A stretch of 52,556 bases of DNA from a virus. Shown one piece after another: positions 6,429 through 40,416 of the stretch. Position 1 is the stretch's first letter. Every line of letters begins with the position of its first letter. The stretch is taken from IMG/VR virus record IMGVR_UViG_3300036829_000111, positions 1 to 52,556 of that record, one strand, 5' to 3'. The notes beneath the pieces were generated by a model. It did no database searches, was not told the DNA's origin, and worked only from the letters and a program-made list of their open reading frames with translations. The position numbers and the translations under genes were made by a program.

Positions 6429-6767
6429 TCAGGGAGAGGCGGCCAGTGCCGCCAGGTGGGCGTGCCACCGCTCGTGGTGGCCGCCGGCGTTCGTCGGGAC
6501 CGCTGGCTGCCACTTCCAGCCGCAGGCGCAGCCGATGCCGCGCAGGCCCGGCTCCGGCAGCTCCTCGGTGGTCAGCCAGTGCGGCAGGTGGCCGGCGTCC
6601 GTGACCAGCGGGGAGTGAGCGGGGCAGAGGTAGCCGTGGACGACGGGCTTGATCAGGCGCCAGCCGGGAACGTCGCGGAGTCCCTCGCCGGTCCAGATGT
6701 TGAACCGGGCCTCGCAGGCGGGGAACATGCAGTGGCGGAGGTAGCCGGGGTCGGTGAAGTCGGTCAT
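6429..6767 (-). CDS. Hypothetical Cys/His-rich protein
   Basis: ATG at 6767 overlaps the upstream stop in ATGA, which fixes the start. The 112-residue product has CMFPACEARF (about 14-23), LCPAHSP and GIGCACGWKW, with HHERWHAH near the end. These Cys and His pairs look like one or two zinc sites. Such zinc-ribbon-like proteins are common in actinophage early regions; function unknown. Confidence 0.7.
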   Translation of the reverse strand: MTDFTDPGYLRHCMFPACEARFNIWTGEGLRDVPGWRLIKPVVHGYLCPAHSPLVTDAGHLPHWLTTEELPEPGLRGIGCACGWKWQPAVPTNAGGHHERWHAHLAALAASP

Positions 6768-7516
6768 GACGCCTCGCCGAATAGGCAGCCTTGCGCGAGC
6801 CGACGGGCGGCGAGCTCGCAGTAGCGTTCGTCTGCCTCGATGCCGATGGCGCGGCGGCCGGAAGCGCGGGCAGCGTCCAGCGTCGAGCCAGATCCGGCGA
6901 ACGGGTCGATGATGAGGCCGCCGGGCGGGCACGCGTAGGCGATAAGCGGGTCGAGGATGCCGACCGGCTTCTCCGTGGGATGCAGGCCGCCACGCACGGA
7001 CTGAGCGAACTGGACTGACCGCGCCAGGCGCGTGCCGTCATCGTCATAGCGCGTCATGCCGATATCACCCAGGTGTGGTCCATGGGCAATGTTGCGCATC
7101 CGTATGTGCTTGTCCGGGCCGGTGTAGGCCGTGCGAGGGGTGTCGTGGTGGAGGTCGCTCCAGTCGCCCCGGTACCAGTGCGCAGCCGTCTCGTGGACGC
7201 GCTTGAAGCGGTCGGTCGCAAACCCAGTCCCGTTGGCTTTCTCCCAGATGACGTCCTGGCTGAGCTTCCACCGTGCGGCGGTGAACTCGTATCCGTGGTC
7301 GAGGAACATTCGCAGGCTGCCGAAGCACCACAGCGACCGCGTGACAGGTGCCGCCGTCTCAAGCCAGCCGTGCGGCCACCGATCCCATACGAGAGACGTC
7401 TCGCCGTACGGCGGGTCGGCGACGATGCAGTCCGCGGTGACGCCGAGTGCAGGCAGGATCCCGCGCGAGTCGCCGAGGTACAGCTCGACCTGGCCGTCGG
7501 CGAAGTAGGGCTTCAC
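6764..7516 (-). CDS. Adenine-N6/cytosine-N4 DNA methyltransferase
   Basis: A 250-residue protein from GTG at 7516 (GTGA overlap). Catalytic DPPY lies at about 34-37 in ADCIVADPPYGET, and the SAM-binding IDPFAGSGSTLDAA is near residue 205, so the order is catalytic motif first, then FxGxG (beta-type). HPTEKPVGI is the usual segment just before the SAM motif. It methylates the exocyclic amino group of A or C in a specific sequence. No restriction nuclease gene is adjacent, so host-restriction evasion or self-marking is more likely than a restriction system. Confidence 0.9.
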   Translation of the reverse strand: MKPYFADGQVELYLGDSRGILPALGVTADCIVADPPYGETSLVWDRWPHGWLETAAPVTRSLWCFGSLRMFLDHGYEFTAARWKLSQDVIWEKANGTGFATDRFKRVHETAAHWYRGDWSDLHHDTPRTAYTGPDKHIRMRNIAHGPHLGDIGMTRYDDDGTRLARSVQFAQSVRGGLHPTEKPVGILDPLIAYACPPGGLIIDPFAGSGSTLDAARASGRRAIGIEADERYCELAARRLAQGCLFGEAS

Positions 7517-7725
7517 GCCGCCACCTCCAGCGCGCCCGGCGGGTTCAGCGGCCAGTCCGCCGCCTCCGCGTCCCACCACGCAGGCCACGACGTCCCGCAC
7601 ACCTCATGCGTGTAGTCGGCACGCAGGGAGCCGTTGCCGTCCGGGGTGACCGTGGACGGGAGGACCGCGGGGAAGTCGCCGGGGTGGCACTCCGGGCAGG
7701 CGTCGGCGAGCGGCGAGCGGGTCAT
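7513..7725 (-). CDS. Small zinc-ribbon-like protein
   Basis: A 70-residue protein. ACPECHPGDFPAV near the N-terminus and HEVCGTSW about 30 residues later give the ligands of a small zinc site, and the C-terminus is Trp-rich (WPAWWDAEAADW). The start ATG at 7725 shares its last base with the DnaB stop (TGATG). It lies between helicase and methyltransferase; role unknown. Confidence 0.7.
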   Translation of the reverse strand: MTRSPLADACPECHPGDFPAVLPSTVTPDGNGSLRADYTHEVCGTSWPAWWDAEAADWPLNPPGALEVAA

Positions 7726-9086
7726 CACGCCGCCTCCTGGGGGAACTGCTGCTGTTCCTGCGCCGAGGGACGGTACATGTCGGCACACATCGCGAAATGT
7801 CCGCGGAACGCCAGCGTCGCAGTTCCGAGCGGTCCCTGCCGGTTCTTCGCCACGATCAGGTCGATCTCGCCAGCCCGGGCCGACTCCTGTTCATAGGCGT
7901 CCTGCCGGTACAGCAGGATCACGATGTCGCTGTCCTGCTCCACCGAACCCGAGTCACGCAGATCCGCGGGCAGCGGCCGGTGGTCCGTCCGCATCTCCGG
8001 GCCCCGGTTCAGCTGGCTGCCTACCAGGATCGGAACCTTGAACTCCTTCGCCAGCAGCTTCAGGCCACGCGAGAACTCCGAGATCTCCCGCTCCCTGCTC
8101 GCCGCCTTATCGGTGCCCTTGATGAGGCCGAGATAGTCGACGACCACCAGCTGCGCCGGGCTTCCCGCGCGGCGCATAGCCCGCAAATCCGACCGGATCG
8201 ACTGCACCGACATGTACGGGTCGTCGTTGATCAGCAGGTTCCCGCACCCCGTCAGGTGCGTGTGCGCCTTCGCGAGCCGCTCCCAGTCGCGCTCCTCAAG
8301 GCCGCCGTCCCGGATCCGCTTCAGCTCGACGCCGGCATGGAACGACAGGATCCGCTCGATGCACTCATCGGAGGACATCTCCATCGTGCACACGAGAACC
8401 GGCGCGCCCAGGTTGACGCCGGCGTGCACGGCGATGTTCAGCATGACCACGCTCTTGCCCATACCGGGGCGGCCGCCAACTGTGACCATCTGGCCGGGGC
8501 TGAAGCCCGGGACAAGCAGGTCGAGGTCCAGCCATCCGCTGGGGATGCCCTGCCGCCCTTCCGGGCCGCACTCGATGCGGTCGATTACCGGGCCGATCAG
8601 GTCGGCGATGCTCCGTGCGCCGGGCGGCAGCGCGGTGCCGGCTGCTTCGTCCAGCACCTTGTACGCCGCGTCGATGCGGTCGGCCAGGTCCGTGCTCCCG
8701 CCGAGAGCCGCGCTGCGGATGCTCGCTCCTGCCTCCGCGAGACGCCACCGGACGGCGCAGTCCCGCACCCGCTGCGCATACCAGGCGGCGCTCGCCGCGG
8801 ACGGGACTGCGGTTATCAAGGTGTGCAGGTACGGTGCACCGCCGGTCTTCGCGAGCGTGCGGCGTGTCTCCAGCTCGGCCTTGACGCGGATCGGGTCCGC
8901 ATGCTCCCCGCGGCCGGAAATCGCCGCGATCGCAGCGAAGATTTCCCCATGCGCGGGCCGCGCAAAGTCGCGGGCGTCCAAGATCTCCAGGCAGTCCGCG
9001 ACCGCAGCCTCCGACAGCATCATCGCGCCGAGCACCGCCTGCTCAGCCTGCAGGTCAGACGGGATCTCATTGTCGACGTCGTTCAC
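7725..9086 (-). CDS. dnaB: Replicative DNA helicase, DnaB family
   Basis: 453 residues, close to the usual DnaB length. The N-terminal helical domain begins PSDLQAEQAVLGAMML (about 9-24), Walker A GRPGMGKS is at about 205-212, and the family segment CTMEMSSDE follows. Walker B VVVDYLGLI is near 310, and GSQLNRGPEMR and NRQGPLGTATLAFRG are the C-terminal RecA-fold landmarks. It unwinds the replication fork as a hexamer. It sits in order initiator, DnaC-like loader, SF2 helicase, DnaB, each overlapping the next by 1-4 nt, so the element probably drives its own replication. Confidence 0.95.
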   Translation of the reverse strand: MNDVDNEIPSDLQAEQAVLGAMMLSEAAVADCLEILDARDFARPAHGEIFAAIAAISGRGEHADPIRVKAELETRRTLAKTGGAPYLHTLITAVPSAASAAWYAQRVRDCAVRWRLAEAGASIRSAALGGSTDLADRIDAAYKVLDEAAGTALPPGARSIADLIGPVIDRIECGPEGRQGIPSGWLDLDLLVPGFSPGQMVTVGGRPGMGKSVVMLNIAVHAGVNLGAPVLVCTMEMSSDECIERILSFHAGVELKRIRDGGLEERDWERLAKAHTHLTGCGNLLINDDPYMSVQSIRSDLRAMRRAGSPAQLVVVDYLGLIKGTDKAASREREISEFSRGLKLLAKEFKVPILVGSQLNRGPEMRTDHRPLPADLRDSGSVEQDSDIVILLYRQDAYEQESARAGEIDLIVAKNRQGPLGTATLAFRGHFAMCADMYRPSAQEQQQFPQEAA

Positions 9087-10732
9087 CGTGCCGCCTTCCG
9101 TATTTTCCGGATCGTCTTCGCCGCGTAGTGCGCGGTCATCAGGTCGGATGCCTCACCGCGGGACATCCCGGTCCTCACGGCGTGGCCCATGCGCCCGAGC
9201 GCGGACTTCTGCGCCTCGCTGGCAGGCCTGTCCCGCCATGCGGCCTTCGCCTGGGACAGGACGCCGCCGTTCGCGCGGGCGATCTCCTCGCCGACACCGC
9301 GTGCCCAGTCGAGGGCGAGCGGCTTCCCGGACTCCAGGCGGGGACTGCCGCCCTTCAGGCAGCGCCACACGTCCCACTCGTCCTCGCCGACACCCGGCCG
9401 GGAGGTGAGAATCATGACCTGATCGGCGCCCGCAGGAAGCACCCACGAGCCGTCCACGTCGATCCAGCGGAGCTCGCTGCGGCGCAGGAGCTCAATCTGC
9501 TTCGTCCGGGCCGCGGCAACCGCGATCTTGCGCTGCTCCGCCTCAGCCTGCTCCTCGGCCGCGTCCAGCAGGGACTTGCCGTTCTTCACGGACCCCGGGG
9601 GCATCCCGGCAAGATCGGCGATCGTGGCGAGACCGAGCTGCTCGGCGGAACCCGCGACGTCGAGGATCGGCGCGTCAGTCTTCGAGTAGGGCCTGCCGCC
9701 GACCTTTCCGATGAACGGCCGCAGCACGCGTCCCGCCATCTGGACGAAGAACGGGGCGGACTTCGTCGGGCGCAGCATCAGCGCGCACGACACGGCCGGC
9801 TCATCCCAGCCCTCAGTGAGCACCTGGGCGTTCGGCACGACGCGCGTCTCTCCGCGGTGCAGGCGGCCCAGGATCGCCCGGCGCTGCTCGAGCGGCATCT
9901 TCCCGTCCACGGCCTCCGCCGGGACGCCCTTGCGGGTGAGGGCCTCGGCGAGCGCGTGCGCGGTCGCGATCGTCGGGGTGAACGCCACCCCGATCCGGTC
10001 CTTCGCGTATTGCACGTACGCGTCCGCAGCGGCCTCGAGGGCGTCAGAGCGCTCCAGCTCGGCGGCGATCGACGAGTCCGTGTAGTCGCCGGCGCGGACC
10101 TGCGCGTTGGACAGGTTGAAATCGCCGCCGACCTGGATGGCCTTCACGTCGCACAGGTAGCCTTCGGCGATCATCTGGATGATGCCGCGCTGGTAGGCGA
10201 TCTCCTGCCAGACGTGGCCGAGCCCGATCTTGTCGCTGCGCCCGGCCGTGGCTGTGAATCCGACCGTGAGCGGGCCGTTGCCGGCCATGCTGCCGAGGCG
10301 CTCGAGGATGTCCAGGTAGATGTCGGCGACGGCGTGGTGGGCCTCATCGACGATGACCGTCGAGAACTTCCCGAGGCGCTCCAGCCGTCCCGGCCGGGCG
10401 AGCGTCTGCACCGAGGCGACGACGACCGGGGCACCGTAATCGTCCTGCTTGGCCTTGACGATCCCGATGTCCAGGTTCCCGCTGACGGCGGCCAGCTTCG
10501 CTGCAGCCTGCGAGATCAGCTCGTCCCGGTGGGCGAGGATCAGCGACCGGCCCGGGCGGCTGCTGACCAGGTGCGAGAACACCACGGTCTTGCCACCGCC
10601 TGTTGGCAGGACGACGAGCGGGCGCGTGATGCCCTTCGCATGAGCTGCGTTGACGGCGGCGATAGCCTGTGCCTGGTAGGGGCGGAGCGGCAGCGATGCG
10701 GACGCGGGCATCTCCAGTGCAAGCGCGTTCAC
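9083..10732 (-). CDS. Superfamily 2 DEAD/DEAH-type helicase
   Basis: 549 residues from GTG at 10732 (GTGA overlap). Walker A LPTGGGKT is at about 42-49, motif Ia-like LILAHRDEL follows, DEAH is in VIVDEAHH near 135, motif III TATAGRSDK follows, and motif VI QMAGRVLRP is near 345. This is the layout of RecG/RAD25-like and phage UvsW-type helicases. After the two RecA domains comes a long C-terminal region (about 400-549) with a helical Ala/Glu stretch and no clear domain. It probably remodels branched or stalled forks alongside the DnaB helicase. Confidence 0.9.
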   Translation of the reverse strand: MNALALEMPASASLPLRPYQAQAIAAVNAAHAKGITRPLVVLPTGGGKTVVFSHLVSSRPGRSLILAHRDELISQAAAKLAAVSGNLDIGIVKAKQDDYGAPVVVASVQTLARPGRLERLGKFSTVIVDEAHHAVADIYLDILERLGSMAGNGPLTVGFTATAGRSDKIGLGHVWQEIAYQRGIIQMIAEGYLCDVKAIQVGGDFNLSNAQVRAGDYTDSSIAAELERSDALEAAADAYVQYAKDRIGVAFTPTIATAHALAEALTRKGVPAEAVDGKMPLEQRRAILGRLHRGETRVVPNAQVLTEGWDEPAVSCALMLRPTKSAPFFVQMAGRVLRPFIGKVGGRPYSKTDAPILDVAGSAEQLGLATIADLAGMPPGSVKNGKSLLDAAEEQAEAEQRKIAVAAARTKQIELLRRSELRWIDVDGSWVLPAGADQVMILTSRPGVGEDEWDVWRCLKGGSPRLESGKPLALDWARGVGEEIARANGGVLSQAKAAWRDRPASEAQKSALGRMGHAVRTGMSRGEASDLMTAHYAAKTIRKIRKAAR

Positions 10733-11319
10733 TTCGCGGCCCTCCGCCTGTCCGCGCCGCGGAGCGGGATCAGCCGGCACATCTCGGCGAGCCGGGAGGC
10801 GACACGGTCTCCGATTACATCGCGCAGCTCGGCGGCCGGGATGTTGGACGTGAAGATCCCTGGCAGCATCGCCTCGTAACGGTGATTCACGAGCCGGTAG
10901 AGAATTTCCTCGGTCCACTCGGTGACCTTCGCGGCCCCAAGATCGTCCAGCAGCAGGAGGTCCGCGGCCGCGAGCCGCGCGAACTCGCCCTCGCTGTCGA
11001 CGCCTTCGCGGGGGCGCATCGATGCGTACATGTCGGGCGCGGTGGCCGCTTCCCAGTTCACGGTGATGCCGCGGGCGGCGAGCGAGCGGACGGCACCGAA
11101 CGCCTGGTGCGTCTTCCCGGATCCAGTGGGGCCGAGAATCAGCAGCGACGGCGACTCGGGAGAGAACCCCTGGCACCAGGCAGTGACATCGGAGTGGGTT
11201 GCGGTGGCATGCCGAAACCGGGGCGGGATGCGCCGGTCGGCGACTTCCGCCGCGCGGCGCAGGAAGCCCTCGCGGGTCGACACGTCGTAGAGCGGCGCGT
11301 CGTTCGGTGGTGCTGTCAT
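10729..11319 (-). CDS. DnaC/IstB-like AAA+ helicase loader
   Basis: 196 residues. Walker A LILGPTGSGKTHQAF is around 61-75, Walker B LLLLDDLGAAK around 118, sensor-1 FTSNIP follows, and an arginine-finger-like RVASRLAEMCR lies near the end, all typical of DnaC-type loaders. It would load the DnaB helicase at the origin. The start overlaps the stop of the initiator gene by one base (TGATG). Confidence 0.88.
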   Translation of the reverse strand: MTAPPNDAPLYDVSTREGFLRRAAEVADRRIPPRFRHATATHSDVTAWCQGFSPESPSLLILGPTGSGKTHQAFGAVRSLAARGITVNWEAATAPDMYASMRPREGVDSEGEFARLAAADLLLLDDLGAAKVTEWTEEILYRLVNHRYEAMLPGIFTSNIPAAELRDVIGDRVASRLAEMCRLIPLRGADRRRAAK

Positions 11320-12233
11320 CAGATCGGCTCCTCGTAGACCGAGTCATCGGAAGGGTTCTTGTAGGTCTTGTGGCCGCGCTGCGGCGACGCACGATTACCC
11401 CCGGCTTCCCGAGCGAGCCGGGCTCTGGCGTCGGCGGTGGCGGCGGCGTTGACGAAGCTGTCGAGCAGGGACACGTTCTTGTCGGCGATAAACCAATCGG
11501 CGAGGCCCTTCCGGATGTGCCGGTCAGGCGTGCCCTCGTTCAAGAGCGCACCGATCTGCTTGGCAAGCCGTCCTTTGGTCTGGCCGGTGAGTTCGCCGCC
11601 GTTGGCACGAACCCAGTCGATGAAGCTGCCAAGGATGGTCTGCGCGGTGGGCGCGTCAGCGCGCGCCGAATCTGAGGGTTGCTTTACTGAGGGTTCTATG
11701 AGGGGTAGCGGGCCTGTTTCCGCAGGTAGTGCGATCGAGTCCGCACCCTTTCGGCTTGATTCCGCACCCTTTTCCTTCGAATCCGCACCCTTTATCTCGG
11801 GTTGAGGGTGCGTTCTGGCCGCACCCTTTCCGCGCGCTTTAGGGTGCGTTCTGGCCGCACCCTTTCCCTGCTCCTCGCAGGGCTCCATCGCGTCAGATTC
11901 CCCGTCTTCGCAGTCCTCGAAAGGGTGCGCACAGTCCGCACCCTTTTCATCGTGGGCGAGAGGAAGAAGAACGAACCTTGCGCGACCGCCCCGGTTGCCT
12001 CCGCCATCCCGCTTCAGCACGCCCTCCGCGACCAGCTCGTCGGCGATGTGCGAGACGCGGGACGGCGACTTGCCCGTGCGATGCGAGAGCAGGCTGCGGC
12101 CCGGCCAGCCCGTGCGGGACCTGTCGTTGGCGTTCTCCGCCCAGGACAGGAGCCACAGCTTCCGGACATCAGGACCGTGGTAATGGTCGAGGATCTCGCG
12201 TACCAAGCGGATGCCCATAACCTCACCCGGCAT
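11319..12233 (-). CDS. Replication initiator-like protein carrying a repeat array in its gene
   Basis: 304 residues. The N-terminal region (about 1-90) holds a winged-helix pattern: LLSWAENANDRSRTGWPG, then SPSRVSHIADELVAEGVLKRDG. Residues 95-175 are low complexity with seven KGA repeats, encoded by the DNA repeats listed separately. The C-terminal part (about 195-275) is helical, like the helicase-loading half of phage O/DnaD-type initiators. Position directly before the DnaC-like gene supports initiation. The start at 12233 has an AAGGTG Shine-Dalgarno; an alternative is the ATG at 12218 (MGIRLVRE). Confidence 0.8.
   Translation of the reverse strand: MPGEVMGIRLVREILDHYHGPDVRKLWLLSWAENANDRSRTGWPGRSLLSHRTGKSPSRVSHIADELVAEGVLKRDGGGNRGGRARFVLLPLAHDEKGADCAHPFEDCEDGESDAMEPCEEQGKGAARTHPKARGKGAARTHPQPEIKGADSKEKGAESSRKGADSIALPAETGPLPLIEPSVKQPSDSARADAPTAQTILGSFIDWVRANGGELTGQTKGRLAKQIGALLNEGTPDRHIRKGLADWFIADKNVSLLDSFVNAAATADARARLAREAGGNRASPQRGHKTYKNPSDDSVYEEPI
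11742..11947. repeat. Iteron-like array inside the initiator gene; candidate replication origin
   Basis: Nine copies of CGCACCCT(TT) or its complement. Direct copies start at 11742, 11763 and 11784 (exact 21-bp period), then 11820, 11856 and 11937; inverted copies AGGGTGCG lie at 11805, 11841 and 11920. Copies at 11805/11820 and 11841/11856 form two inverted pairs with the same 7-nt spacer inside a 36-bp direct repeat. A third pair is 11920-11946. Phage lambda places its origin iterons inside gene O (established precedent). Use as the origin here is inference. Confidence 0.7.
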
Positions 12234-34335: not shown

Positions 34336-35241
34336 ATGTCAACCACTTCGCAGGACAGGATCCCAGAGCTGCGGGTGCGCCCCGGGGTCAGCAAGGCGGT
34401 CGTCTGGTCCGGGGTCGCGCTCGGCACGACCCTGGCGATCCTGGCCATGATGCACGGGGCGCGGCTGCACCTCGGCGGAATGCCCGCCCTCCCCGGCGCC
34501 GTCTTCGGCGTGCTTGTCGAGTGGGCGCTGTTCGTGGCCACGGCGATCCTGGCGGCCGAGATGACCCGCCGCCATCACAAGACGGCGGCCCGGTACGCGG
34601 CACAGCAGGGGAGCCGCGGCGCGTCCGCCGGAGGCCAGGCCCTCCGCAGGCACGCGCTCATGTTCCTCGACAAGTCAGCCGACTGGGCCGCCCCGCGGTG
34701 GCATGCCCGGACAGGCAGCACCCGCACGCCGGATGAGATCACGCAGCCGATTCCCTCGGCAGCACCCGCAAGCCCCTCCGCAGACAGCGCGGAGGTCAAT
34801 CCAACCGAAGGAGAAAACATGACGACACCGACACGCGGCCTTGTCAGCCGCATCAGCCCTGACCGGCGGGCGCAGCGCACCGCATCCCGCAGCGGCGCCG
34901 TCATCCCGGCGGAGTGGGGCCATGTGGTCACGCAGACCGCCGACTTCGACCCCGAAGACGACGGGCACCTGCTCGACTGGATGGGCGGGCAGGTCGCCGG
35001 CGTAGCCGCCTACGGGGAGGCGCTCGTCGAGGTGTACGAGGGCCTCACCCGCGACAAGGGGGCCGACCCCAAGGCCGCCGCCGCGATCCACGATGTCGCC
35101 GACGCCATCGCCCACGCCGCGGAGATGATGGCCGCCGCCAAGGCGAAGTTCTCCGAGCACTACGAACTGCCTCGCGAGTACGCCGCCAACGGCGGGCTCA
35201 TGACCCACGACGGCCGGTGGGTCACCGGCGAAGGCGACTAG
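34336..35241 (+). CDS. Membrane protein fused in frame to a soluble THDGR-type protein
   Basis: 301 residues. AVVWSGVALGTTLAILAMM (about 22-40) and FGVLVEWALFVATAILAAEM (about 57-76) are two spans, with a charged linker to about 160. The second half, helical and acidic, ends GGLMTHDGRWVTGEGD. A strong GAAGGAG and ATG occur in frame at 34807-34821, so this second half can be made separately. The C-terminal motif is shared with the 38473 protein. Likely a transfer-module component. Confidence 0.75.
   Translation: MSTTSQDRIPELRVRPGVSKAVVWSGVALGTTLAILAMMHGARLHLGGMPALPGAVFGVLVEWALFVATAILAAEMTRRHHKTAARYAAQQGSRGASAGGQALRRHALMFLDKSADWAAPRWHARTGSTRTPDEITQPIPSAAPASPSADSAEVNPTEGENMTTPTRGLVSRISPDRRAQRTASRSGAVIPAEWGHVVTQTADFDPEDDGHLLDWMGGQVAGVAAYGEALVEVYEGLTRDKGADPKAAAAIHDVADAIAHAAEMMAAAKAKFSEHYELPREYAANGGLMTHDGRWVTGEGD
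34819..35241 (+). CDS. Nested product of the 34336 gene (internal start)
   Basis: The 140-residue C-terminal half could be made from ATG at 34819, which has GAAGGAG 5 nt upstream. It starts MTTPTRGLVSRISPDRRAQR, contains AAAIHDVADAIAHAAEMMAA and ends THDGRWVTGEGD. Homologous ending to the first domain of the 38473 protein, which there begins at its own ATG, supports an independent protein. Confidence 0.55.
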   Translation: MTTPTRGLVSRISPDRRAQRTASRSGAVIPAEWGHVVTQTADFDPEDDGHLLDWMGGQVAGVAAYGEALVEVYEGLTRDKGADPKAAAAIHDVADAIAHAAEMMAAAKAKFSEHYELPREYAANGGLMTHDGRWVTGEGD

Positions 35242-35315: not shown

Positions 35316-37616
35316 GTGGCCATACAGGCGCCGGAGCGATGGGCACCGGAGCGGCCGTGCCAGATCCCCGGGCACCCCCACGACGACGTCGGAGATGACG
35401 AGCGTCTGCTGCTCACCATGTCGCCGTGGCAGAGGTTCCGGTCATGGATCATGGCCGCGCCCGCTGAGCGGCTGCCCCTGCCCGCGTTCGTGACTGCGTG
35501 GCCCGCCACGGAGATCATGCACGCAGCCGGCGTCCCCGGCACGGTCCCCGCCTGCGCGACATGCGCCGCTACCGCCGCAGCGTGGCTGACCTGGTTCCGG
35601 CACCGGAAGGCATCCCCGCACCCGCGGCTCGCCCCCCTCGAGGCCGCAGGCGTCGCCGCCGCTGCCGGCGGATGGATCACCGCCGCCGACATGTGGGGCC
35701 CGCTCGGCTGGCCCGCCCACCTGCTCACCGGGATCTACCTTGCCGGGTCCGCCGGCGGGTACGCGTGGCTGCGCCGCCATGAGGCTGTCCTCGCCGCCCG
35801 CAAGCGCCGTGAAGACGCCGCTGCCGAGATCGCCGACAGGCGCCACTGGCATGGGGTGCTCCACCGGGCCGGCCTTGGCGGCTGGCACGTGCAGTGGCGC
35901 CGCGACACCAACCTCGGCGAGGAGCGGCTGATCACCACCAGCCCGGAGAACGCGTCCGCCAAGCAGATCGCCGCGAACAGCAGCAGGATCGCGGAGAAGC
36001 TCGAGCACATCCTCGGCCTGCCCTACAACCGGATCGACATCAGCACGACCGGCCAGCCGGGCCAGCTGATCATCGGTATCCGCACCGTGGACGTTTCGTC
36101 GCGGAGCGCCGCCTACCACCCGATGACGATGCCGTGGCCCGAGAGCAGCCCGTCCCCGTTCGCGGACTGGTTCCCGGAGACCGCCAGTATCCGCGACCCG
36201 GCCGTGTGGGGATTCTGCCCCGAGGACAGTTCCCCCCTGGCCGCCCAGCTGCTGAGCGACATCGGCGGCCGGGCCATCGGCGTGTTCGGCATGACCGGCT
36301 CCGGCAAGTCGTCCCTGCTGAACAACCTCCGCGAGTTCGTCACCCGATGCCCCGACGCCCGCATGGTGCAGCTGAACGGCGCGCACATGGGCGACGAGTT
36401 GTCCTGGGAGCCGCTGTCCGCGCTGACGCGATGCGGCCCGGTCGCCACCAACGAGAACGTCCGCAACGACATCGCCGAGATCCTGGAAGCGCTGCGCCTG
36501 CTCGTCACGAACCGGTCAGAGACCCTCGAGAAGACCGGGCATTCCACGTTCCAGCCCACGGAGAAAGATCCGGCCGTCGTCATCTTCATCGACGAGGTCG
36601 ACGAGATCGTCAAGTACGTCCCCGGGGCCGGAGATGCGCTGGATTTCCTCGCCGGCAAGCAGCGGAAATCGGCGGTTGCCCTGGTTCTCGCGACTCAGCG
36701 TGCCGTGATCAAGGCGATCGGCGGCGGTGCCGTGCGGGCGAACCTGAGCGAGGCCCTCGTCGGCAAGGTCGCTCGCGGCTCTGAATCCCGCCACGCGACC
36801 GGGGCGGAGAGCGAGCTGCCGGACATCCGCGAGTACAGCGGCGGGGCGCCCGGCTATTTCCAGACGTTTGACCCGCACTCAAACACCGTCACCGGACGGG
36901 GCCGGGCGTTCCTCCTCGGCGTGCCACCCGAGGAACTGGCCTACGTCAAGCGCCTCGTCGCGGCCCGCAGGCACCTGCGGGACTGGGGCATCCCCGACAT
37001 GCCGGAGATGGACCTGGACGGCGGCGAGGCGGTTGCTGAAGCCGCCGCGGGCGAGACGACGCGGGAAGTCGCCGGCCTGCGCGAACGGCTCGCCGCCGCC
37101 CGCGACAACGCCGCGGCACAGCCCGCGCCTGCAGCGGCCGCCAAGACGCAGCCGCCCGCGCAGGCTCCGACCTTCATCCCGGGGGTTCCGCAGCCTGTCG
37201 TACAGATGATGCTTCGGATGCTCGCCGCCCCGGACGGGGTGACCGCGGCGGCCTTCGGCGATGCCATCGGCAAGTCGAAGACCACGGCGTACGGGTACCT
37301 GAAATCAGCGGAAGACCGCGGAGTCGCCGTTCGCGACGGCAACTCGGTAGCGAGTCGTTACCGGCTCGCGACCCGTCGGCAGCCGGAATCCGTCCGGGAT
37401 CAGTCCGAGACGATGGAACCGGCCCAGACCCGGCCCGAGGGATACGTGACGCTGGAAGACCTCGCCGAAGAGGTACGCGACGGCCGGGTGGATGTCGATG
37501 ACGAGGCCCGCGCCGTATTGATGCAGGCGCTTCAACTCCGCGACCAGGCACCCGCGCGCCCGCATCTGACGGTCGTGCCGGACCCGGACCCGGAACCGGA
37601 AAGTGACGCACTGTGA
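35316..37616 (+). CDS. FtsK/TraB-type DNA translocase of the transfer module
   Basis: 766 residues from GTG at 35316 (AAGGAAG upstream). Hydrophobic segments lie near 55-150 (AAGVAAAAGGWITAADMW, LLTGIYLAGSAGGYAWL). Walker A GVFGMTGSGKSSLLNNL is at about 322-338, Walker B AVVIFIDEVDEIV near 418-430, followed by ALVLATQRAVIKAI. The C-terminus (about 625-690) is a winged helix: MMLRMLAAPDGVTAAAFGDA, IGKSKTTAYGYLKSAEDRG. Actinomycete TraB proteins share this plan and move double-stranded DNA between cells after binding a clt site (established knowledge). Assignment to conjugation rests on this and on context. Confidence 0.85.
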   Translation: MAIQAPERWAPERPCQIPGHPHDDVGDDERLLLTMSPWQRFRSWIMAAPAERLPLPAFVTAWPATEIMHAAGVPGTVPACATCAATAAAWLTWFRHRKASPHPRLAPLEAAGVAAAAGGWITAADMWGPLGWPAHLLTGIYLAGSAGGYAWLRRHEAVLAARKRREDAAAEIADRRHWHGVLHRAGLGGWHVQWRRDTNLGEERLITTSPENASAKQIAANSSRIAEKLEHILGLPYNRIDISTTGQPGQLIIGIRTVDVSSRSAAYHPMTMPWPESSPSPFADWFPETASIRDPAVWGFCPEDSSPLAAQLLSDIGGRAIGVFGMTGSGKSSLLNNLREFVTRCPDARMVQLNGAHMGDELSWEPLSALTRCGPVATNENVRNDIAEILEALRLLVTNRSETLEKTGHSTFQPTEKDPAVVIFIDEVDEIVKYVPGAGDALDFLAGKQRKSAVALVLATQRAVIKAIGGGAVRANLSEALVGKVARGSESRHATGAESELPDIREYSGGAPGYFQTFDPHSNTVTGRGRAFLLGVPPEELAYVKRLVAARRHLRDWGIPDMPEMDLDGGEAVAEAAAGETTREVAGLRERLAAARDNAAAQPAPAAAAKTQPPAQAPTFIPGVPQPVVQMMLRMLAAPDGVTAAAFGDAIGKSKTTAYGYLKSAEDRGVAVRDGNSVASRYRLATRRQPESVRDQSETMEPAQTRPEGYVTLEDLAEEVRDGRVDVDDEARAVLMQALQLRDQAPARPHLTVVPDPDPEPESDAL

Positions 37617-37708
37617 CCATGGAAGCGCGGTTGAGGAGGGGACGCGTACGCGACCCCCGGATTGAGTTCGGAAAGGCGTTCGGTTGTCTTGCTGAGCAGG
37701 GGTTTTGA
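37613..37708 (+). CDS. Small basic peptide, 31 aa
   Basis: GTG at 37613 overlaps the FtsK/TraB stop in GTGA. The product is VTMEARLRRGRVRDPRIEFG plus a short tail ending in LAEQGF. Arg-rich. Its stop overlaps the repeat array. Coupling favours translation but composition alone does not prove it. Confidence 0.4.
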   Translation: MTMEARLRRGRVRDPRIEFGKAFGCLAEQGF

Positions 37709-37752
37709 ACGGAAACGGAACGACAGTCGAATGGAAAACCGAACGGAAAACC
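37707..37752. repeat. 12-bp tandem repeats, candidate clt/transfer or operator site
   Basis: GAATGGAAAACC (37729-37740) abuts GAACGGAAAACC (37741-37752), with a partial copy GAACGGAAAC at 37707-37716. They lie between the FtsK/TraB gene and the GIY-YIG gene, just before the latter's ATG. TraB proteins recognise short direct repeats near or within tra genes (knowledge). Whether these serve as such is inference. Confidence 0.5.
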
Positions 37753-37756
37753 AGTC

Positions 37757-38476
37757 ATGACCGCTTACGAAGAGTCACCGTATGAGCGCGCCGAGACGCC
37801 AGATGAGGCCACGCGTGGCGATGCCCTGATGATTCCGCTGTCGCGCATGCTCACCGGCAGGCCTCACCCCCCTGTCGTCTACTTCGCCCGCATCGGCAAC
37901 ATCGTCAAGATCGGCACGACCACCAACCTCACGTCGCGCATGCGGTCGATGTATGTGTCGCTTGAAAACGTGCTGGCCGTGGTGCCTGGCGGCAGGGAAG
38001 AGGAGAGCGCCTACCACAAGCGCTTCAAGGCGAGCCGGGTCGAAGACACCCACGGGCGCGAGTTGTTCCACCTTGATCCGCAGTTGCGGCGCTTCCTGCG
38101 CCTCGGCCCAGAAAATCCCCAGGCGGACACGCTCAGGACGAAGGCCCGGCAGATGGGGAGGCGTCGCCCTGGCGCCCCCCAACGCAAGCAGTTTCTTCCC
38201 GTGGACGTGGCAATCCCGGTAGGGCCGTTCGCCGCCAACGATGCGCCCCCGGTGATGCGCGAGGTGCCCTCATATGTCATGGAGGTGCTGTGGCGGCTGC
38301 TCGCCAAGCCGGAAGGCACCACTGCGACCTATGTCGCCGCCGCCATCGGCACGTCCAAGACCGTCGCGTGGGAGTACCTGACCACACTCCGCGACCAGAA
38401 CATGGCAACACTGACCGGTGGCGGCCGAGGGGCGCGGTGGAGACGCACGAAGCCACCCGAGGAGCAAGCATCATGA
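37757..38476 (+). CDS. GIY-YIG (MUG113-type) nuclease-like protein with C-terminal winged helix
   Basis: 239 residues. PPVVYFARIGNIVKIGTTTN (about 38-57), SRMRSM, LAVVPGGREEESAYHKRFKA and GRELFHLDPQLRRFL are the MUG113/T5orf172 GIY-YIG segments, with the usual Y/F-x-x-x-x-x-x-KIG core. C-terminal VMEVLWRLLAKPEGTTATYV and AIGTSKTVAWEYLTTLRDQ match the winged helix of the FtsK/TraB neighbour closely. A nuclease that shares the translocase's DNA-recognition module could act at the same site. Weak Shine-Dalgarno. Confidence 0.8.
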   Translation: MTAYEESPYERAETPDEATRGDALMIPLSRMLTGRPHPPVVYFARIGNIVKIGTTTNLTSRMRSMYVSLENVLAVVPGGREEESAYHKRFKASRVEDTHGRELFHLDPQLRRFLRLGPENPQADTLRTKARQMGRRRPGAPQRKQFLPVDVAIPVGPFAANDAPPVMREVPSYVMEVLWRLLAKPEGTTATYVAAAIGTSKTVAWEYLTTLRDQNMATLTGGGRGARWRRTKPPEEQAS

Positions 38477-40416
38477 GCAGTTACGAGGACACGCTGTACT
38501 CGCGCGCCGAGCTGCTGGATGAGACCAGCGACCTCGCCGCGGAAGCGACGGAAGTGCTTGACGGTGCGGCCGCGACGGGCGTCGACCCGGCCGCCGTCAC
38601 CAGCCTGCGAGCAGCCGTCCGGGCGCTCGACCCCGCAGGCGGCACCCCCTCCTACCAGGAGCACCCCGGCGACAGCTACCACTCCGACATCGAGTTCCTC
38701 GAGGCCATCGTCGATGCCGAGGACCAGGTCCGCGAGCGGCTCCGCGACGCGGACAAGCTCCGGGGCGAGGCCGCCGAGGCGATGGACAAGGCCCAGGATG
38801 ACCTGGGACGATCCCGCCGCGACCTGCAGAACGCCCAGATGGCCCTCGCCGCCGCGATGGCGCTCCCCACCAAGGATCCCTGCAACGGCTGCCACTCCGC
38901 CAAGGCCGCCGCGATCATGCAGGCCGAACAGGAAGTCGCCGACGCCGAGCAGGCCATCGCGGATGCCGAGCGGCGCATCAGCACCCTCGGCGGCGCCCTG
39001 GAGATCCTCGACGAGCTCACCCGCAGGCTCACCGCCGCCATGAAGGCGCTCCGCCGGGTGCCCGCCGACCTGGGCGAGACCTACGAGCTGGTTGCCGAGT
39101 TCATCCGCCGCGGCGGGAAATTGACCCACGACGGCCGCTTCATCACCGGCGAAGGCGACATGCCAGTCGGCGGCCGCCGCCCAAAAGGCCAGGGGCGGCT
39201 GTGGAACGCCCGAAACGATCACCATGACAGGAGCAGCATGAACGGCACGCCGCCGGTCAACGGCACGCAACTGCGCTTCGGGAAACTGCCCATGGTGTGG
39301 CTTCCCGAGTCGCCCGCGCCCGCATCACAGTGGCCGCAGCAGGAAGCGCCGGCCGGACTGCCGGCGGAGGCGGAAAGCCCGGCAGAGCCGAAGCGGCGCT
39401 CGTTCACCCTCAGCCGCGGCCAGAAGACGCTCGCCGTCGCGATCCTCGTCCTGGCGCTCGCCGTCACCCCCGTGTTTTTCCTCGTCATGTTCCTGACCGT
39501 GAACGGGATGCTCGGCCCGTACTTCGACGGCTGGGCGTGGACGGTGCCGGTCGCGACCGAGACGACGTTCCTGCTGCTGTTCCTGCTGGCCGTCTTCATG
39601 GAGTGGGTGCGCAAGCCAAAGAAGCTGCTGTGGGTCGCCCCGCTCCCGTTCGGCGCCATGTCCGTGTTCCTGAACGTGTGGGCCTCGCACGACAGCGTCC
39701 CCGGCATGATGGGCCACCTCGCGGTGACCCTCGCGTTCTTCATCCCGGTGATGTTCGCGAAGTCCGCTGTCCGGTCCCTTCTCGTCACCGACGAGGAGCG
39801 GGCCCGCACCGTCGCGCTGGCCGACGCGCAGGCCCATGCCCGCGACATGCTCCGCTCCGGGCTCGGCATCCGGTGGCGGGCGAAGGCCCCGATGATGCTG
39901 CGCCGCCAGCTTCGCTCCGGACGCCTCCCGGCGCGGGTCCTCGAGGCCGTCAACACCGGCCAAGCGACCGCATGGGAGGACGCCGTGGAGACGTGGATCG
40001 CCGCCGCCGTGACCCTCCCGGAGCGCACCCGCGCGGTACTCGACGCGGCCCGCGCAGAGGCCTCCCGGAGCATGCCCGCAAGCACGCCGGAGACGCCCGC
40101 CGAGCCTGCCCCGGAGCCCGTCCCCGAGCCCGCTCCGGACACGCCCGCAGCCGTGCCTGAAGCACGCCCCCGGGCAAGCGCGAAGCGTGTCTCCAAGCCT
40201 GCCCTGAAGCTCACCGCAGCACGGTCCCGGAGCATGTCCCCGGCCGAGCTCGCCGCGAACGTCGAGGCCATGCTCGACGCCAACGGCGGGACCGTGTCCG
40301 TGAACAAGATCAAGGCCGACCTGAGCGTCGGCACGGACAAGGCCAAGACGGCACTGGAGATCGCCCAGCGGAACCGGGCGCGCGTCATCCCGATAGGGGA
40401 GCGGCGGCAGGCGTAG
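38473..40416 (+). CDS. Coiled-coil / DUF2637 (SpdB-type) membrane fusion with winged helix
   Basis: 647 residues. Part 1 (1-229) is a coiled coil with CNGCHS and ends GGKLTHDGRFITGEGD, where the paralogue at 34819 stops; here no stop follows. Part 2 (about 256-647) starts MNGTPPVNG at a good internal ribosome site, then has four DUF2637 spans (TLAVAILVLALAVTPVFFLV, ETTFLLLFLLAVFMEWV, APLPFGAMSVFLNVW, LAVTLAFFIPVMFAKS), a Pro-rich linker and a winged helix (MLDANGGTVSVNKIKADLSV, near 590). DUF2637 proteins belong to actinomycete plasmid spread regions. The fusion is unusual. Confidence 0.8.
   Translation: MSSYEDTLYSRAELLDETSDLAAEATEVLDGAAATGVDPAAVTSLRAAVRALDPAGGTPSYQEHPGDSYHSDIEFLEAIVDAEDQVRERLRDADKLRGEAAEAMDKAQDDLGRSRRDLQNAQMALAAAMALPTKDPCNGCHSAKAAAIMQAEQEVADAEQAIADAERRISTLGGALEILDELTRRLTAAMKALRRVPADLGETYELVAEFIRRGGKLTHDGRFITGEGDMPVGGRRPKGQGRLWNARNDHHDRSSMNGTPPVNGTQLRFGKLPMVWLPESPAPASQWPQQEAPAGLPAEAESPAEPKRRSFTLSRGQKTLAVAILVLALAVTPVFFLVMFLTVNGMLGPYFDGWAWTVPVATETTFLLLFLLAVFMEWVRKPKKLLWVAPLPFGAMSVFLNVWASHDSVPGMMGHLAVTLAFFIPVMFAKSAVRSLLVTDEERARTVALADAQAHARDMLRSGLGIRWRAKAPMMLRRQLRSGRLPARVLEAVNTGQATAWEDAVETWIAAAVTLPERTRAVLDAARAEASRSMPASTPETPAEPAPEPVPEPAPDTPAAVPEARPRASAKRVSKPALKLTAARSRSMSPAELAANVEAMLDANGGTVSVNKIKADLSVGTDKAKTALEIAQRNRARVIPIGERRQA
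39238..40416 (+). CDS. Nested DUF2637 product (internal start)
   Basis: ATG at 39238 with AGGAG 4 nt upstream, in frame, would give a 392-residue DUF2637 protein lacking the coiled coil. This is the normal gene boundary if the two parts were once separate genes. Both long and short forms could be made. Confidence 0.5.
   Translation: MNGTPPVNGTQLRFGKLPMVWLPESPAPASQWPQQEAPAGLPAEAESPAEPKRRSFTLSRGQKTLAVAILVLALAVTPVFFLVMFLTVNGMLGPYFDGWAWTVPVATETTFLLLFLLAVFMEWVRKPKKLLWVAPLPFGAMSVFLNVWASHDSVPGMMGHLAVTLAFFIPVMFAKSAVRSLLVTDEERARTVALADAQAHARDMLRSGLGIRWRAKAPMMLRRQLRSGRLPARVLEAVNTGQATAWEDAVETWIAAAVTLPERTRAVLDAARAEASRSMPASTPETPAEPAPEPVPEPAPDTPAAVPEARPRASAKRVSKPALKLTAARSRSMSPAELAANVEAMLDANGGTVSVNKIKADLSVGTDKAKTALEIAQRNRARVIPIGERRQA

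Follow-up and report, generated by a model that had tools for sequence, protein, structure and literature searches.

A viral GIY-YIG nuclease joined to the winged helix of an FtsK/TraB-type translocase, and similar chimeras in phage-plasmids and viral contigs

The record IMGVR_UViG_3300036829_000111 of an actinobacterial virus, analysed here over its full length of 52,556 bases (the window; G+C about 70%), encodes a DNA translocase, a GIY-YIG nuclease and a membrane protein as a same-strand block located upstream of its terminase genes. By alignment, profile comparison and predicted structure, the product of positions 37757-38476 is shown to be a putative GIY-YIG (T5orf172/MUG113-type) domain joined to the winged helix of an FtsK/TraB-type translocase. 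Homology between the C-terminal domains of the translocase and the nuclease is confirmed, and it is real for two of the trio's three proteins. An earlier, sequence-only reading of this region, whose coordinates for the trio are correct, had proposed that one DNA-reading module is common to all three proteins, which would meet at a single site on the DNA. The module is shared by the nuclease and the motor but not by the membrane protein, and domain capture followed by redirection fits the sharing better than a three-protein complex. The features concerned are as follows.

35316..37616, plus strand: FtsK/SpoIIIE-like (TraB-type) DNA translocase, 766 residues, GTG start
36288..36311, plus strand: Walker A motif GMTGSGKS of the translocase, from the translation, with a Walker B-like VVIFIDEVDE about 290 bp downstream
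37185..37379, plus strand: DNA-reading winged helix at the C-terminal end of the translocase (residues 624-688), a homologue of the corresponding domain in the GIY-YIG protein
37617..37756, no strand: intergenic region of 140 bp with short repeats (GAACGGAA twice, AACCGAAC twice), a candidate, unproven clt-like site
37757..38476, plus strand: GIY-YIG nuclease chimera, 239 residues, with a Pfam T5orf172 match and a viral fold match
37757..37813, plus strand: first 19 codons of the GIY-YIG protein, like the start of the next gene (MTAYEESPYERAETPDEAT against MSSYEDTLYSRAELLDETS)
37859..38101, plus strand: GIY-YIG catalytic domain, residues 35-115, with conserved Y42, K51-I52-G53, R61, H87 and E102
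38261..38455, plus strand: winged helix at the C-terminal end of the nuclease (residues 169-233; helices 172-182, 190-197 and 201-213, strands 217-220 and 227-230)
38473..40416, plus strand: membrane protein with a coiled N-terminal part, earlier described as a DUF2637 fusion; its counterpart lies at 8393-10324 of locus L003

The translocase matches the FtsK/SpoIIIE-like PHROG family phrog_12531 (E = 1.1e-8) and, with phmmer, FtsK 2ius (E = 0.0099). Pfam FtsK_SpoIIIE is not listed for it (protein P0001) and reaches a sub-threshold 0.019 for the corresponding protein of L003. Like TraB of Streptomyces, the window motor is FtsK-like, is borne by an element and adjoins a spread-type membrane protein; unlike TraB, it has no match to the NCBIfam plasmid_TraB equivalog at E ≤ 0.01, and its recognition repeats are candidates only. 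Because of the missing plasmid_TraB match, we call the protein TraB-like rather than TraB. The neighbouring GIY-YIG protein scores 22.4 bits against Pfam T5orf172 (cut-off 20) and 22.1 bits against MUG113, just under the cut-off of 22.3, and its best viral fold match is the GIY-YIG protein of phage MooMoo (E = 2.1e-5). Residues Y42, K51-I52-G53, R61, H87 and E102 are invariant in all six aligned GIY-YIG sequences, and we take them to have the catalytic roles assigned to their equivalents in GIY-YIG enzymes. The catalytic part (residues 41-120) is modelled with a predicted local distance difference test score (pLDDT) of 81-95 per block.

TraB has a C-terminal winged helix, and the sequence-only reading had seen such a domain at the ends of both the TraB-like and the GIY-YIG protein, a claim borne out by shuffled controls, HHalign, a search of the record itself and AlphaFold. 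Residues ~624-688 of the translocase align without gaps to residues ~169-233 of the nuclease, with 24 of 61 positions identical; the local alignment scores 115, whereas shuffled sequences average 23 (z about 22; none of 2000 shuffles scored as high). Searching the window record with the GIY-YIG protein returned the translocase C-terminus at E = 1.6e-10, and HHalign comparison of the two profiles gave 97.7% (E = 9.4e-12). A hidden Markov model built from the two window domains and the L003 domain matched, among open reading frames (ORFs) of at least 100 residues and at E ≤ 1e-3, just these two ORFs of the window.

Structure prediction, which had been proposed as a check, agrees: AlphaFold places the elements in the order helix-helix-helix-strand-strand in both proteins, although the input alignment for each included the other protein's domain as a row, and the two models are not independent. 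The winged helix of the nuclease (residues 171-230) is modelled with a mean pLDDT of 90-96 per 10-residue block and that of the translocase (residues 621-690) with 63-85 per block; outside this domain the full translocase model is poor (mean pLDDT 46). Matches of the GIY-YIG model in the PDB cover mainly the winged helix. The 50 structures listed align to the C-terminal domain over 58-73 residues with Z scores of 8.0-9.1, and many of them are winged-helix DNA-binding domains.

The third copy of the domain, which the sequence-only reading had placed at the C-terminus of the membrane protein, is rejected. Pairwise scores of this C-terminus fell below the shuffled mean against the two winged-helix domains and within 0.5 standard deviations of it against the whole translocase and GIY-YIG proteins, and HHalign gave at most 0.12%. 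Nor did the DUF2637 label hold: the protein has no Pfam DUF2637 match at E ≤ 0.1, and BLASTP against a Pfam-confirmed DUF2637 protein gave E = 0.78. When the C-terminal ends of L009, a true DUF2637 protein, and L018, a membrane GIY-YIG protein, were taken jointly, they reached just 11% against the window domain.

The supposed partnership of three proteins is also weakened by the relative at L003, the only one returned by a pattern scan of 2.9 million viral contigs. On this 83.6-kb contig (G001), a translocase 79% identical to that of the window is followed by a 130-bp gap and the membrane-protein gene, with no GIY-YIG gene between them, and when the entire record was searched with the GIY-YIG protein, only the translocase C-terminus matched. 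The slot between the same conserved genes is occupied in the window and empty in this single relative; since the gene is missing beside so similar a motor, the motor can do without the nuclease as a partner. Identity between the two translocases drops from 86.7% in residues 1-600 to 38.5% in the winged helix. The two membrane proteins form a mosaic, with 32.5-45% identity over residues 281-440 and 80-92.5% over residues 441-520. Because parts of the membrane protein are as divergent as the motor reader, the divergence of the reader is not unique, and simple mosaicism is a possible cause. Further searches added little: P0001 and P0002 had no match in 50,697 phage records, P0001 had none among plasmids, and P0002 had no relative among viral contigs by its own patterns. 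Query A1 found none in genome contigs and none at E ≤ 1e-12 in 396 phylum genomes (first candidates per genome scored; no positive control), and query A9 returned the known relative L003 only.

The sharing of a reader between nucleases and translocases recurs in other elements. In plasmids, tblastn with the window GIY-YIG protein matched eight Streptomyces records, all by the catalytic domain. The records from NBC_01259, NBC_01590 and NBC_01723 are circular and carry terminase genes, from which we infer that they are phage-plasmids, and the C-terminal end of their GIY-YIG proteins is another winged helix. A plasmid search with one of these proteins (P0009) returned 32 records, in 27 of which the best place lay in the C-terminal domain only; 15 of these 27 bear a type IV secretory/FtsK translocase annotation, 10 are hypothetical and 2 are unannotated. 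Four more GIY-YIG proteins with the phage-plasmid type of winged helix came from viral contigs (L022-L025), so that seven (L006, L007, L009 and L022-L025) carry a winged helix known from translocase C-termini. Two others, L031 (1.2e-18) and L026 (2.3e-17), match Pfam FtsK_gamma (PF09397) above its 30.6-bit cut-off. FtsK gamma directs the chromosomal motor via KOPS; in FtsK it sits on the motor, whereas in L026 and L031 it follows the nuclease domain and there is no motor. With query A4, matches in 396 genomes were dominated by FtsK itself, and none of those listed spanned both the GIY-YIG and the FtsK-gamma parts; in the viral scan, the two known cases and two already-found contigs, the latter matched via the GIY-YIG part, were recovered. 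In all, 22 loci, by our reading, comprised these four with the phage-plasmid type of winged helix, the two with FtsK gamma, five that combine a hydrophobic N-terminal part with a C-terminal extension, five that have the hydrophobic N-terminal part only and six others; two pairs in this set have identical proteins (L020/L032 and L021/L033).

Within each class, HHalign joined nuclease and translocase readers at 97.7% (window), 99.96% (phage-plasmid) and 99.4% (FtsK gamma), whereas between classes it gave at most 11%, with some single-pair E-values down to 7e-4. By these profiles, then, the sharing would not stem from one old fusion, and the readers appear to fall into three separate classes, separate meaning that HHalign does not join them; they may still have a distant winged-helix ancestor in common.

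Several other architectures were seen among these loci. At L018 (6843-8603), L020 (7128-8519), L029 (7140-8702) and L035 (7026-8534), the GIY-YIG domain is flanked by a hydrophobic N-terminal region on one side and a C-terminal extension on the other, an arrangement that looks like insertion into membrane proteins of the spread type; the extension of L018 is helix-turn-helix-like. Past its gamma domain, the L026 protein (7206-8858) continues for about 80 residues, and this C-terminal segment may be a second winged helix. The plasmid translocase of Streptomyces sp. QHH-9511 (L014, 4979-7909) continues for about 200 low-complexity residues past its winged helix, perhaps a frameshift reading into the downstream region. 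A fourth type of GIY-YIG C-terminal domain (L044, 1456-2286; L107, 5455-6321) is common to a 288-residue plasmid protein near a DUF2637 gene; it was not counted as a fourth shared translocase reader, since this partner has no visible motor.

To examine how the chimeras arose, we compared three nuclease genes with five translocase genes at the DNA level. Eleven of the 15 pairs share DNA inside the genes, three share it downstream only and one not at all. Six of the eleven, of which four involve L007 and two L009, have the start of homology at GIY residue 181-182; in the other five it falls within residues 177-221. In four pairs the homology runs on beyond the stop codon, and examples of these are the NBC_01723 gene and pSAM1, 76% identical over 621 bp (77% over 1020 bp in another comparison), NBC_01590 and L013, 74% over 369 bp, and NBC_01259 and L010, 73% over 188 bp. 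Because DNA homology starts at the reader, the phage-plasmid nuclease genes are recombination chimeras. A tree built from the readers of 7 nucleases and 19 translocases (97 columns) intermixes the two kinds, with five changes, at least three of them forced, and rejects a single nuclease clade (p-AU = 4.8e-34); the domain is short, some branches are long, and 4 of 23 inner branches are well supported.

The readers of these nucleases are not those of their resident motors. Five loci could be compared (L006, L007, L009, L023 and L025; L022 has no ORF like a resident translocase, and that of L024 is split). In all five, the nuclease reader had no meaningful match to the resident translocase C-terminus (best E = 0.25) and did match foreign translocases, at 39-79% identity and E-values from 6e-18 to 6e-46. 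This pattern argues against the earlier view that nuclease and motor meet at one DNA site, which is not general.

The closest precedent that we found is Odn (Gp88) of phage ICP1. This nuclease cuts at PLE origins, depends on the iterons and is inactivated by E180A, and its N-terminal part shares 42% identity with the RepA_N domain of PLE1 (PMC8263062). Like Odn, the proteins described here are phage T5orf172-type GIY-YIG chimeras with a DNA-binding domain from another element's key DNA-binding protein; the foreign match in five of five loci reproduces this feature, and reader identity, 42% for Odn, is 24/61 in the window and 39-79% in the phage-plasmid and viral loci. Unlike Odn, whose reader is N-terminal and comes from a replication initiator, they carry a C-terminal translocase reader (TraB-type or FtsK gamma), and Odn's cleavage is proven (PMC8263062), whereas the window nuclease is known here from sequence and model. 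T5orf172 homing endonucleases, with which the present proteins share their nuclease class, their modular DNA-binding parts and a place close to essential genes, are described as swapping DNA-binding domains, also in exchange with satellites, and 200 of 229 T5orf172 proteins carry zinc-finger type readers and some RepA_N (PMC10448857). The terms FtsK, translocase, TraB, Streptomyces and plasmid do not occur in the available main text of that paper, and the available parts of two accounts of TraB (PMC4170104, PMC5133688) describe no nuclease sharing TraB's reader. The suggestion that such a nuclease would be new to the TraB model is upheld to the extent that we found no description of translocase-reader capture by nucleases in the open-access literature searched. 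We place the finding among the chimeric nucleases, a kind for which Odn provides the proven example.

Our best model, to which we assign a probability of about 0.5, is a mobile, Odn-like nuclease that reads the clt- or KOPS-like translocase address sites of other elements. TraB recognises 8-bp clt repeats and short recognition sequences, GACCCGGA in pSVH1 (PMC4170104, PMC5133688), and a nuclease equipped with a reader of this type would be expected to find repeats of this type. The winged helix would bring the nuclease to short repeated translocase sites, clt for TraB-type readers and KOPS-type sites for FtsK gamma, where it would nick or cut. It would be used against related or competing elements: by cutting the transfer site of a rival, the nuclease may spread through repair, as in homing, or exclude the rival, as Odn does through satellite origins. 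The motor and the membrane protein would then be an ordinary transfer/spread cassette that houses the nuclease. Absence of the gene from a close relative, together with the foreign readers in phage-plasmids, makes use against related or competing elements most likely, and when reader exchange is added, a mobile or competitive nuclease is favoured over a fixed partner.

Several observations weigh against this model. The target site of the nuclease is only a predicted one, and the clt-like repeats of the window are weak: depending on word length and score, 2-15% of intervals of the same record score as high as 37617-37756. The homologous gap of L003 (8263-8392) is clearer, with CGAACGAA three times and CGAACG four times; its best word is equalled in 0.4-2.6% of intervals (0.4% for three copies of CGAACGAA), and 4 of the 16 copies of CGAACG in the 14.2-kb L003 locus fall in the gap. 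CGAACG is at background level in the window (two copies, a number that other intervals reach). In a repeat scan of 11 loci, the top clusters near the genes had no word common to all. The window reader is about equally like the resident motor (24/61) and the L003 motor (21/61), which does not point to a foreign target in the window; counted by eye, its recognition helix is identical to that of the L003 motor at 11 of 19 positions and to that of its own motor at 9 of 19, too close to tell which site the nuclease may read. One nuclease-less relative is known. In 4 of the 11 pairs sharing DNA inside genes, homology extends beyond the stop codon, the reader being shared together with DNA downstream of the translocase; if the site lies in this DNA, the nuclease would attack its own genome. 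Finally, 43 of 392 sampled Streptomyces genomes had a match (at most six candidates per genome scored), and the 30 loci examined held 18 GIY-YIG genes and 12 translocase-type readers. None of these 18 GIY-YIG loci carried either of the two reader classes tested, and chimeras are thus uncommon in this sample.

We consider it unlikely that the nuclease is instead a partner in cis, which nicks or opens its own transfer site beside the motor and so aids double-strand transfer, segregation or spread. The arrangement of the window would suit such a role: the genes are adjacent on one strand, the membrane gene begins inside the stop of the GIY-YIG gene (ATGA at 38473-38476), and the two readers are homologous. 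GIY-YIG domains with hydrophobic, spread-like N-terminal parts also recur (L005, L017-L020 and L027-L030), which suggests a part in a transfer machine. A motor as similar as that of L003 nevertheless has no nuclease beside it, the readers of resident motors and nucleases have no meaningful match at any of the five phage-plasmid or viral loci, and a double-stranded molecule is described as the substrate of TraB transfer, for which one protein encoded by the plasmid suffices (PMC4170104).

A plain freestanding homing endonuclease, inserted at the traB/membrane-gene junction, is similarly improbable. Its ends would derive from the flanking genes and its winged helix would set only the insertion site, with no role in competition. 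The empty site in L003 is in keeping with this account, as is the description of nuclease genes as often lying at exchange boundaries near essential genes (PMC10448857). The C-terminus of the GIY-YIG protein is like the upstream gene, and its first 19 residues resemble the start of the downstream membrane protein (first 40 residues of each: z = 6.2, 1 of 5000 shuffles as high), a likeness that is short and was spotted after the fact. The first 40 residues score z = 6.6 against the L003 membrane gene (0 of 5000), and the N-terminus z = 4.3 against the whole membrane protein (11 of 5000). With its ends resembling the upstream and downstream genes, the window chimera may have taken both from its neighbours. 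Homing alone, however, leaves the capture of three separate translocase reader classes unexplained. Least probable by far is a regulator whose winged helix, similar to ArsR/IclR/MarR-type regulator folds among the listed structural matches, binds transfer-operon operators while the GIY-YIG domain is inactive or serves for DNA binding only; the putative catalytic residues Y, K-I-G, R, H and E are invariant in six of six sequences, a conservation for which an inert domain would have no need.

Two further DNA elements accompany the translocase and chimera genes in other loci. TGAGCC/GGCTCA arrays occur at L010 749-1248, L013 815-1314, L014 795-1294 and L006 56-555, with 19, 19, 16 and 17 copies per 500 bp, compared with 0.25-0.34 per 500 bp elsewhere in these loci. 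The copies lie in all three frames and both orientations inside the gene upstream of the translocase, the product of which ends in a helix-turn-helix-like region in L010. They may form a DNA-level site array, clt- or centromere-like. At most 1-2 copies per 500 bp occur in L011, L012, L007, L009, L015, L016, L003 and the window. Downstream of translocase and nuclease-chimera genes alike stands a conserved block, CAGACAAAC ... GCACGGCCCGG ... GGTGTCCCCGCGCCC ... CCGGGCCGTGC.

L006 ~6765-6855, L007 6622-6710, L010 7495-7592, L011 7350-7460, L013 7352-7440: conserved noncoding block

It is also present in L009, L022, L023, L025, L052 and L067. The block is hairpin-like with weak covariation (2 of 15 pairs) and had no Rfam match at the gathering threshold in the nine of these 11 loci that were searched; it could be a small RNA or a site, and we do not claim it as the nuclease target.

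Portal and DnaB helicase genes are present in the window record together with the terminase genes. The ORF preceding the translocase (34336-35241) and the membrane protein have in common a motif of the form GG-x-(M/L)-THDGR-x-(V/I)-TGEGD (35191-35238 and 39112-39159), and the L003 counterparts are similar. At 11742-11944, inside a minus-strand ORF (11319-12233), nine copies of CGCACCCT/AGGGTGCG in about 200 bp look like the iterons of a replication origin within an initiator gene.

Odn illustrates how a DNA-binding domain borrowed from a rival turns a homing-type nuclease into a targeted weapon, and here this step seems to have been repeated with DNA-motor domains that belong to three separate sequence classes. 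Extending our model, we tentatively suggest that GIY-YIG proteins of actinobacterial phages and phage-plasmids might form a class of translocase-site weapons, which would repeatedly capture the winged helices of double-strand DNA motors (TraB-type and FtsK gamma), cut the sites of rivals and drive exchange of motor readers; exchange under nuclease pressure is proposed because the window and L003 motors are so much less alike in the reader than in their first 600 residues. If the nucleases do cut at clt- or KOPS-like sites, this could explain the high variability of the reading domain in the window motor. To our knowledge, few clt sequences are known, and the nucleases would then be tools for finding such sites. 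According to the model, the DNA that a given translocase binds should be cut by any nuclease that has that translocase's reader.

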